NCBI GenBank assembly: GCA_022449455.1
Contig: JAKUPL010000003.1
Coordinates: 62,001 to 126,000 of the forward strand
DNA from: Alcanivorax sp.
Lineage (GTDB): Bacteria > Pseudomonadota > Gammaproteobacteria > Pseudomonadales > Alcanivoracaceae
DNA: 64,000 nt
Direction of reading: 5' to 3'
The notes under the pieces were generated by a model. The model was not told the DNA's origin. It saw only the letters and a list, made by a program, of their open reading frames with translations, and made no database searches. The position numbers were made by a program, and so were the translations under genes. Each line of letters opens with the position of its first letter. Positions within the stretch are counted from its first letter, which is position 1. Positions 23,212 to 25,272 of this stretch are shown piece after piece.

Positions 23212-24015
23212 TCAGTCGCCGCGGGTGCCGAGAATCAGCCCCCGCTGGCGCAGCCCGCCCAGCAGGTCGGCACCGAAAGCGCGCACCGCGGCCGGATCCG
23301 GATGCCCGATCTCCCCGGCCAGCCGGGCCAGCAGCCGTTCGCCGCTGTCCTCGGGATATTCGCCGATCAGCGCCAGCAGCCGCGCGGTGACCGCGTTGAT
23401 CTCCATGAACGCCACCTGCTCGTCGCCATCCCGGTAGATCAGCAGCCAGACCGGCTGCGGCGGCGGTTCGGTGGGCCGGTGCCGCGGGCCGATGCGGTGC
23501 ACCGGCCAGCGGTATTGCAGCACCGCATGCAGGGGCGACAGGCAAGGCACGCCGGCCAGCGGATCGCCATCCGGCCGCACCCGGGCCTGGATCGGCGCGT
23601 CGGCGGTTTCCAGCACCACCTCCATCCACTCGTAATGGGCCAGCTCGGCCAGAAACGGCGGCGCGCCCTCCTCCGGCGTGTACTCCTCCTCCAGAAAGGT
23701 GACGAACTCCCGGCCGATCTCAAGAAAATACGGCGAGCGCGAACTGTGGGCGTCAAAGAAGGCGCGCACCAGTCGCCGCCAGGCGGGCTCGTCGTGGAGC
23801 GCCCTGAGCACCGGAAAGCCTTTTTCCAGAAACCCGTTGATGTTGTTGAAGAACAGATTGCGGTAGACCGCCAGGCGCCGTTCCTCGATGCCCTCCGGGG
23901 CCGGGTGCCGGTCCGGATCGCGCAGGTGGGCGGCGAAGCGGCGCTGGATGCGCAGGAACTCCGGTTCGCTGTTCCTTTCGCTGTTCCTTTCGCTGGTCCT
24001 TTCCGGGGACTCCAT
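23212..24015 (-). CDS. hvfC: HvfC-like RiPP maturation partner (DUF2063)
   Basis: A 267-residue protein with the DUF2063/BufC N-terminal helical domain (about 18-110, with RLAVYRNLFFNNINGFLEKGFPVL) and a C-terminal domain ending in a winged-helix-like segment (FMEINAVTARLLALI). HvfC/BufC proteins bind the precursor and assist the MNIO enzyme. The ATG overlaps the hvfB stop (ATGA). The N-terminus has a tandem SERN repeat from a 12-bp DNA duplication (about 23970-23995). Confidence 0.88.
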   Translation of the reverse strand: MESPERTSERNSERNSEPEFLRIQRRFAAHLRDPDRHPAPEGIEERRLAVYRNLFFNNINGFLEKGFPVLRALHDEPAWRRLVRAFFDAHSSRSPYFLEIGREFVTFLEEEYTPEEGAPPFLAELAHYEWMEVVLETADAPIQARVRPDGDPLAGVPCLSPLHAVLQYRWPVHRIGPRHRPTEPPPQPVWLLIYRDGDEQVAFMEINAVTARLLALIGEYPEDSGERLLARLAGEIGHPDPAAVRAFGADLLGGLRQRGLILGTRGD

Positions 24016-24875
24016 CAGGCGCTCCGCAATGCCGGGCGGGCGCCGCCGTGGGCGTGCTGCAGCGCGCCGATGTGGCGCAGCTCATCGCACAGGGTGTCGA
24101 ACGGCGGGAAATTGAAGTCCCGCTCCAGCAAGGTGGGCAGCACGCCGAACGCCTGATAGGCCACCTCCAACAGACGCCACACCGGGTCGATCACCTCGGC
24201 GCCGTGGGTGTCCACTTTCAGGTCCTCGGCCTCGTCGAAATGGCCGGCCACGTGCACATAAAAAATGCGCTCGCCGGGCAGGCCGCGAATGAAGTCGGCA
24301 GCGTCGTAGCCGTGGTTGATGCCGTTCACGTAGGCGTTGTTCACATCCAGCAGCAGGCCGCAGTCGGCCTCTTCCAGCACCGCGCGCACGAAGTCCAGCT
24401 CGCTGAGGGCGGCGCTTTCGTGCACCGGCGGCGCCGCGTAGTAGCTGACGTGTTCGATGCCGATACGCTGGCCAAGAAAATCCTGCACCTGGCGGATGCG
24501 CTCCGCCGCGTGGTGCACGGCTTCCTCAGTGAAAGGAATCGGCATCAAATCGTAAAGATGGCCGTGATCACCGCAGTAGCTCAGGTGCTCGGTGTAGCAG
24601 CGGATGCGGTGTTCGGCGAGAAAGGTTTTGATCCGTCCGAGCAGATCGAAATCCAGCGGCTCCGGGCCACCCAGGGACAGGCTCAGACCGTGGCTGACAA
24701 AGGGAAAGCGTTCGGTGAAGGCCCGGAACTCACGGCCCAGCCGGCCGCCCATGGGAATCCAGTTCTCCGGTGCCACTTCCAGAAAGTCCACCGGCGGCGA
24801 AGGGGCTTGAGACAGCGGGCCCATCAGGGCCCGCCTCAGCCCCAGACCGGTGCCGGTCACGGGGAACGTCTTCAT
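24015..24875 (-). CDS. hvfB: HvfB-like MNIO (DUF692) RiPP maturase
   Basis: A 286-residue TIM-barrel multinuclear non-heme iron oxidase. Candidate iron ligands and family motifs are clear: [57 protein letters not shown] and DTHGAEV. Characterised relatives (HvfB with HvfC; MbnB with MbnC) oxidise cysteines of a precursor peptide; HvfB makes oxazolone/thioamide pairs that bind copper. It lies 11 bp after the precursor gene and overlaps hvfC. Confidence 0.92.
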
Positions 24876-24886
24876 GGTGCGAGCAA

Positions 24887-25147
24887 TCAGCCCTGGCCGC
24901 CGCAGCTGCCTTCGGACTTCTTGTCACCGCCACAGCTGCCTTCGCCTTTCTTGTCGCCGCAGCTGCCTTCACCACATTTGCCTTCGCCGTCCTTGGAGTG
25001 ATCGCCGGCGAGCTGATAGCCGCTCTGCAGATCGGTGGCGCCGAACGGGTTGTCGGCGGCATGCACCGCGGGGATGGACATCGCGGATGCCACCACGGCG
25101 GCACCCAGGGTGGCGGCCAGCGGATTCAGTTTGCTTTCTTTAGCCAT
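24887..25147 (-). CDS. hvfA: HvfA-like RiPP metallophore precursor with four EGxC motifs
   Basis: An 86-residue precursor with a Sec-type signal peptide (1-30, cleavage after VHA), a spacer, and a Gly/Lys/Glu-rich C-terminus holding one EGKC and three EGSC motifs (Cys58, 63, 72 and 82). In the Haemophilus HvfA system EGKC cysteines are converted to oxazolone/thioamide copper ligands. The start at 25147 has AGGAGA upstream; a longer in-frame start would bury the signal. First gene of hvfABC; no DoxX-like hvfD is present. Confidence 0.9.
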
Positions 25148-25272
25148 GATCGATCTCCTGAAACGCATCTTATCGGAATGTATGAAACTTATTGTCGAAG
25201 GCACCTCCGGGTGCCGTGACCCTATGGAGGCACGGGGCAGGTAAAGATTACGTGGAGATCGGAATGTTTTTT
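25148..25272 (-). promoter_or_regulatory. hvfABC leader with competing hairpins
   Basis: On the minus strand GGCACC (25210-25215) can pair with GGTGCC (25200-25205, loop CGGA), or its GGCAC core can pair with an upstream GTGCC (25228-25232); the two pairings exclude each other. ACATTCCGAT also occurs twice, near 25173 and 25259. No convincing sigma-70 promoter was found, so an alternative sigma factor or a terminator role for the preceding gene is possible. Confidence 0.35.

Follow-up and report, generated by a model that had tools for sequence, protein, structure and literature searches.

Does a three-gene locus whose precursor peptide carries mostly serine before its cysteines belong to the copper-peptide systems of the HvfABC type, and what sets it apart from them? 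The locus, hvfABC, lies on the minus strand of the window, by which we mean the whole stretch of 64,000 nucleotides of an Alcanivorax sp. genome that was analysed. The first-pass annotation had described a secreted 86-residue peptide with one EGKC and three EGSC motifs, followed by a DUF692 and then a DUF2063 gene, overlapping or nearly so, and both descriptions agree with our reading of the ORF and its motifs, of an 11-bp gap between hvfA and hvfB, and of a single base pair shared by hvfB and hvfC. The span it gave, 24015-25147, covers hvfA and hvfB but omits the DUF2063 gene, hvfC. The features of the locus are as follows.

24887-25147, minus strand: hvfA, precursor peptide of 86 residues, with Cys58, Cys63, Cys72 and Cys82
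24015-24875, minus strand: hvfB, MNIO (DUF692) enzyme of 286 residues (PF05114, 323.6 bits)
23212-24015, minus strand: hvfC, partner protein of 267 residues with DUF2063 and NGO1945_C domains (PF09836 and PF22106)
25058-25147, minus strand: probable Sec signal peptide of HvfA, about residues 1-30, with cleavage near VHA/AD judged by eye
25007-25054, minus strand: conserved leader segment of HvfA, 16 residues, PF...L..GY-type pattern
24899-24985, minus strand: HvfA core with four EGxCG motifs, one CxxxxC pair and two isolated
25155-25159, minus strand: Shine-Dalgarno sequence AGGAG of hvfA, read from the sequence

The N-terminus of HvfA combines a basic start with a hydrophobic core (mean hydropathy 1.88 over its best 15 residues, which begin at residue 14), and GGAGA precedes hvfA in the 30 upstream regions aligned. 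Chance does not account for the motifs: when the 56 residues of mature HvfA were shuffled 200,000 times, a single shuffle reached three motifs and no shuffle reached four. The operon, on contig C23 of a 4.2-Mb genome, is the sole MNIO match of that genome. HvfB shares 98% identity with its counterpart in Alloalcanivorax marinus NMRL4 (L002), and we assign the organism to Alloalcanivorax on this basis. On the 5′ side of the operon, in the same orientation, comes a gene for beta-ketoacyl-ACP synthase III, with hrpA beyond it; on the 3′ side lies an MlaA-like gene (101.3 bits, below the cut-off of 375). No metal gene was named among the five neighbours scanned, one of which had no match of any kind. 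Searching the same genome for EGxCG returned the three hvfA matches and three single ones on two other contigs, six in all compared with 14 for the reversed control; no second Ser/Thr-type repeat precursor was found with this pattern, which is blind to Lys before the Cys. Between 22800 and 25500 a scan for sigma-70 promoters gave none, and two terminator-like matches did not exceed the shuffle mean of 2.3 and were discarded. Among the 46 family genomes searched, a Cys-motif precursor lies 5′ of all 43 HvfB-type loci (one partly masked).

Gene content, read directly as above, is matched by the families of the two larger proteins, likewise observed: HvfB scores 416.7 bits against the NCBIfam HvfB model NF003818 (cut-off 360) and HvfC 313.6 bits against NF050145 (cut-off 142). 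With these scores and the active-site positions kept (see below), the original assignment to HvfABC-type RiPP copper-metallophore operons stands. The comparison with HvfA and bufferin families that had been proposed came out divided. HvfA passes only the repeat-domain model NF050137 (KCGExKCG_twice; 22.3 bits, cut-off 19.5) and falls below the full-length HvfA model NF050188 (24.8 bits, cut-off 95); a bufferin identity was rejected, as HvfB is under the BufB cut-off (239.7 versus 310 bits) and HvfA has no DUF2282 match, and so was methanobactin, the MbnB model giving 34.8 bits versus a cut-off of 325. MNIO, PME1 and a Cys-rich precursor occur together, which is how captophorin loci are recognised in PMC13097082; the EGKCG group within them is defined by repeated EGKCG, and HvfA carries one EGKCG and three EGSCG. 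By sequence, the nearest solved structure to HvfB is 3bww (E 6.6e-76), itself 72.4% identical to Haemophilus HvfB (PMC13419390), and 3dee is a solved relative of HvfC (E 9.3e-11). We conclude that hvfABC is a real, intact captophorin operon, in a Ser-rich form that lacks HvfX.

The Cys-repeat precursor, MNIO and DUF2063 partner are shared with fontiphorin (fonABC, Fontimonas), oxazolin (hvfABC plus HvfX, Haemophilus) and gonophorin (ngo, Neisseria), and the substrate and catalytic residues of FonB match the RR and RDF motifs of the window's HvfB, by motif. In contrast to these systems, three of four motifs in the window's HvfA are EGSCG, it has only four cysteines and its genome is without HvfX. 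The mmr system of Microbulbifer, with product bulbicupramide, shares a marine gammaproteobacterial host and EGKCG repeats and binds Cu(I), whereas its EGKCG units hold five to eight cysteines (PMC12538549). The bufferins Buf1 and Buf2 of the Caulobacter sigma-F/NrsF regulon resemble our locus in having an MNIO with a DUF2063 partner and a secreted precursor (PMC12452194), and in a link to copper stress and ECF control through a GTAAC −35 element; they differ from it in the BufB and DUF2282 results given above, and NrsF is unmatched in 45 of the 46 family genomes. The operon is a Ser-majority, HvfX-less form of a known type.

The loss of metal ligands from HvfB, which the first-pass annotation had proposed to look for, was not seen in an alignment of 179 distinct enzymes. 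His62, His97, Glu141, Asp177, Asn179, His208, Asp222, His224, Glu251 and Asp253 are identical in all 179, the window's included; Arg14 and Arg15 each occur in 173 and Phe254 in 168. These active-site positions include the catalytic Asp; besides Asn179, Asp222 and His224, the others are taken to be metal ligands. Via 3bww, and assuming a one-residue numbering shift, those three align to N175, D242 and H244 of Haemophilus HvfB, whose loss abolishes activity (PMC13419390), and R14/R15/D253/F254 were matched, by motif only, to R15/R16/D249/F250 of FonB. This conservation is accompanied by purifying selection on both genes, also directly observed: against five relatives, dN/dS is 0.00-0.23 for hvfA and 0.06-0.21 for hvfB, and against G021, in a clade that lacks a whole copy of the sigma factor discussed below, hvfA gives dN 0.000 with dS 0.231 and hvfB a dN/dS of 0.06. 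Such selection argues that the operon is in use, even though the former regulator seems to be broken or lost in the clade.

What would HvfB make? The oxazolone/thioamide chemistry named at first has been revised in print to 5-thiooxazole (PMC13097082, PMC13419390). This ring was shown for fontiphorin, oxazolin and gonophorin, being present in each of the EGKCG products from the fon, hvf and ngo operons, and the class was named captophorins (PMC13097082); a second report also supports the ring and describes a mixed-valent diiron cofactor (PMC13419390), and the EGKCG precursor family was described in PMC12452194. We infer the chemistry, metal, export and regulation of hvfABC. The primary HvfA product would carry both a Sec signal peptide and a conserved NPF...L..GY leader (a PF...L..GY-type pattern occurs in 142 of 179 distinct precursors), and HvfC would present it to HvfB, the leader segment possibly being the part that HvfC engages. 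As an Fe(II)/Fe(III) MNIO, HvfB would then remove four hydrogens per Xaa-Cys pair and close the 5-thiooxazole, giving one Lys-5-thiooxazole and three Ser-5-thiooxazoles and a mass change of about −16.1 Da on HvfA, that is, the −4.03 Da per Cys predicted from the published chemistry. Once exported, HvfA may bind Cu(I) via the ring thiolates and buffer envelope copper under stress. We are confident in this reading as a whole, a minimal captophorin operon of the oxazolin type with four 5-thiooxazoles, Cu(I) binding, envelope copper buffering and probably rewired expression.

Serine before Cys, at three of the four positions of the window's HvfA with Lys at the fourth, is not unique to it. From 234 loci we obtained 202 usable precursors, 179 of them distinct, after dropping 32 loci without an unmasked precursor of at least three Cys or with less than 50% identity. 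Over the 179, the residue before Cys is Lys 990 times, Ser 112 times and Thr 26 times, and Ser plus Thr outnumber Lys in 18 of 178 distinct gammaproteobacterial precursors, including close relatives of the window; a nineteenth (of 179), L168, proved false, having been read in the wrong frame. No further case of this kind was seen among the 37 precursors without the leader pattern, several of which end at contig ends. Enzymes with Ser/Thr-majority precursors show no change of substrate-contact residue, R14 and R15 being kept in 19 of 19 and F254 in 18 of 19 (L168 included). The precursors L139, L149, L202, L205, L211 and L225 have segments between their EGKCG repeats that look like EF-hands by eye, which recalls the EF-hand chimaeras of PMC12452194, and the MNIO loci L201 and L221 have precursor repeats of CGNIC/CGTFC type, not ExxCG.

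The position of serine follows a pattern. In 38 distinct family precursors, CxxxxC pairs carry Lys 138 times and Ser/Thr 11 times, compared with 17 and 43 for isolated motifs. To control for kinship, enzymes were clustered at 75% identity, which left 25 informative clusters out of 99 (35 were tied and 39 lacked Lys/Ser/Thr motifs of one class); Ser/Thr was richer in isolated motifs in 24 of the 25 and the reverse held in one, the split being 28 to 1 at 85% identity and 20 to 2 at 70%. Isolated motifs favour Ser/Thr and CxxxxC pairs favour Lys, which is a pattern and not proof of function, because a residue can be copied when repeats duplicate within a gene. Isolated sites may nevertheless be handled differently: HvfB could convert the Lys-Cys site only, perhaps together with its CxxxxC partner, and leave the isolated Ser-Cys sites as free thiols or disulfides in a mixed 5-thiooxazole/thiol chelator. 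FonBC indeed left a one-repeat substrate unmodified and modified a two-repeat one (PMC13097082). We nonetheless consider this quite unlikely. Precursors without any Lys-Cys, among them L035/L114, L088 (four Ser), L041 (eight Ser, one Asn) and L194 (six Ser), the last two all-Ser with CxxxxC pairs, are known, and since L088, L041 and L194 lie 5′ of HvfB-type genes, whatever substrate their enzymes may have must be Ser-Cys. Moreover, FonBC tolerates Ala, Arg or Thr in place of the Lys before Cys (PMC13097082), and each Cys of MmrA cassette 1 is modified even with the other mutated (PMC12538549). Complete conversion to four 5-thiooxazoles remains our preferred reading. The portions of the captophorin literature covered here contain no test of a Ser-Cys substrate, and the literature searched makes no use of EGSCG in captophorins; the supplements, outside that search, may tabulate the motif.

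The DoxX-like HvfD reported as lacking is indeed lacking at the locus, and the HvfX type is missing genome-wide (best match 22.3 bits, cut-off 80), the sole DoxX match of this genome lying on another contig, unlinked to hvf. Lack of a DoxX partner is not unusual, as the characterised fon operon is minimal (PMC13097082) and a figure legend for mmr gives mmrA-C with flanking ORFs judged unrelated (PMC12538549). Six Alloalcanivorax genomes are without HvfX: the five that make up the window's clade, and G023, which the tree places elsewhere. The same six lack the Lys pair, which is present in the six other hvf-bearing Alloalcanivorax. Across the 43 family loci, HvfX is present in 28, of which 27 have a Lys/Arg-Cys pair, and absent from 15, of which nine have the pair and six do not (Fisher p 0.0045, for loci that are not independent). 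The association of HvfX loss with Ser content has exceptions: nine HvfX-less loci keep the pair, and G044 has HvfX without it.

How might the operon be controlled? The family hvfA genes are preceded by an ECF-type element, GTAAC-N15-GCATC, whose distribution we observed directly; the copies that matter for the window's genome (G000), with two truncated genes, are as follows.

25227-25251, minus strand: drifted ECF-type element GTAAT-N15-GCCTC, 79 nt before the hvfA start, one change per half
G000:C18:45166-45190, minus strand: ArsS-associated element (L291)
L322:5580-6308 (G000:C21): truncated ECF sigma gene, interrupted in region 4, its reading frame continuing into the anti-sigma tail
L322:10730-11158 (G000:C21): truncated ArsM-like methyltransferase gene, about 94 of 347 residues, then unrelated sequence

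With G or T before CATC, 36 of the 43 family hvf loci have the element, at a distance of 59-127 nt from the start; it is missing at hvf in the window's genome, G020, G021 and four loci of genus g4. A looser form, GTAAC-N15-17-C[AG]TC, was found in 48 of 195 upstream regions, nearly all from Alcanivoracaceae (1.35 expected by shuffles), and had no match in the hvfC control stretches; the 48 include a few chance matches (L010, L106, L107) and miss loci where an upstream Cys was taken as the first motif, which makes 36 of 43 the cleaner family count. A long form, GTAACVTTTAC-N9-GCATC, occurs once each in 23 of 46 genomes, about 0.6 kb or less from hvfB every time, and its reversed pattern nowhere in the 46. 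The short form gave 50 matches in 8 genomes versus 10 reversed, and at least 179 in 20 genomes versus 29 reversed, many of them background. Recurrent GTAACATGCTGGA...GCATC matches were set aside as coding, since those read (at least four) lie inside the sigma ORF.

The short form also precedes genes other than hvf. It stands 5′ of an ArsS-like radical-SAM gene in seven Alcanivoracaceae genomes (L291-L297, sites chosen for this), in two of which, when scanned, ArsS and two arsenosugar-type glycosyltransferases were over cut-off. It further stands 5′ of HvfX-type DoxX genes (L301-L304; L301, the one scanned, 237.5 bits versus 80), of ArsM-like genes (L301, L302, L303, L306, L307; the one scanned scored under the NCBIfam cut-offs) and of VTT/reductase genes (L301, L325), and most of the sites linked to these three kinds of gene adjoin an ECF sigma gene. 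In three loci read, the sigma gene is followed by one for a small CxxC protein, ZAS anti-sigma-like and named by eye. In the window's genome, one of six short-form sites precedes arsS, and three others (L298-L300) are unlike promoters of any known partner gene. ECF control of such operons was already known from Caulobacter, where DUF2282/DUF692 operons are under it and the sigma-F element is GTAACC-N16-CGAA, from Haemophilus, where RpoE2 with the 67-residue anti-sigma HrsE controls an hvf-type operon after HOCl, and from Neisseria, where sigma-E/MseR controls the homologous ngo-type operon. The ECF sigma and small anti-sigma are shared with these last two; unlike in them, the element in the Alcanivoracaceae examined precedes ArsS, ArsM-like and VTT-reductase genes, and no link of such operons with ArsS or ArsM-like genes was found in the literature searched. 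In relatives of the window, the hvf operon appears to belong to a regulon of an ECF sigma and a ZAS-like anti-sigma that includes HvfX, and the shared element suggests that Alcanivoracaceae induce the copper operon along with arsenic-family genes. A SigF/NrsF regulon was rejected, NrsF matching in one of 46 family genomes and not in the window's own. Separately, G023 has a second MNIO, 39% identical, near DoxX and NrsF (L124, G023:C23:103148-109888; NrsF at G023:C23:111133), a locus that is perhaps bufferin-type.

The arsenic-family genes preceded by this element bear on the metal, as do the HOCl induction of the Haemophilus operon through RpoE2 and the response of sigma-F-dependent DUF692 operons of Caulobacter to chromate, and of CC3255 to cadmium; all would fit a peptide made for another metal or for a non-metal role, such as a thiol- or hypochlorite-stress product. 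We judge this improbable. The earlier remark that the metal may differ is without support, as nothing in the sequence argues for another metal, and the characterised 5-thiooxazole peptides bind copper (PMC13097082, PMC12538549), bulbicupramide taking up Cu(I) and not, to an appreciable degree, Fe(III), Ni(II), Zn(II) or Mn(II) (PMC12538549). Its authors, who found little protection, are hesitant to assign a role in copper protection (PMC12538549). Copper remains the metal we would expect for HvfA.

In the window's own lineage the putative regulon looks altered. The ECF sigma matched in 11 of 13 genomes of the genus, in the window's only to residue 184 of 203, whereas nothing matched it at E <= 1e-20 in either G020 or G021; the relatives read carry sigma and anti-sigma genes both whole. 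Next to the truncated ArsM-like gene, the VTT/reductase gene is present. Among 12 Alloalcanivorax hvf loci, the hvf element is altered in exactly three, those of the window's genome, G020 and G021. From the truncated sigma, the absence of HvfX and the drifted element, hvf expression in the window's genome is probably rewired. The same three changes would also suit a poorly expressed relic, with ORFs intact and regulator gone, all the more as the Microbulbifer homologue was undetected in proteomes with or without added copper (PMC12538549). Against such a relic, which we think unlikely, stands the strong purifying selection on hvfA and hvfB reported above, and we retain an operon in use with probably rewired control. 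A simple story of regulon loss also leaves unexplained that the arsS copy of the element is intact despite the truncation of sigma, and does not fit G022, G023 and G024, which keep sigma and element and have no HvfX.

A more far-reaching and tentative proposal, which we hold to be rather unlikely, is that the residue preceding Cys encodes which of two kinds of 5-thiooxazole copper site is formed, one from Lys-Cys CxxxxC pairs and the other from isolated Ser-Cys motifs, with HvfX serving the Lys pairs; the Lys pair and HvfX would have been shed together in the window's clade and, separately, in G023, and a whole sigma lost in the three nearest genomes of that clade, leaving a self-sufficient, differently controlled Ser-type captophorin.

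The interest of the locus lies in its site pattern and its regulon, both beyond what was first claimed for it. The captophorins form a large class of copper peptides that has only lately received its name, and the parts played in it by HvfX and by the residue before Cys are at issue; a family with varied Lys/Ser mixes, with and without HvfX, and with the regulator whole or else broken or missing, offers ready pairs for comparison.
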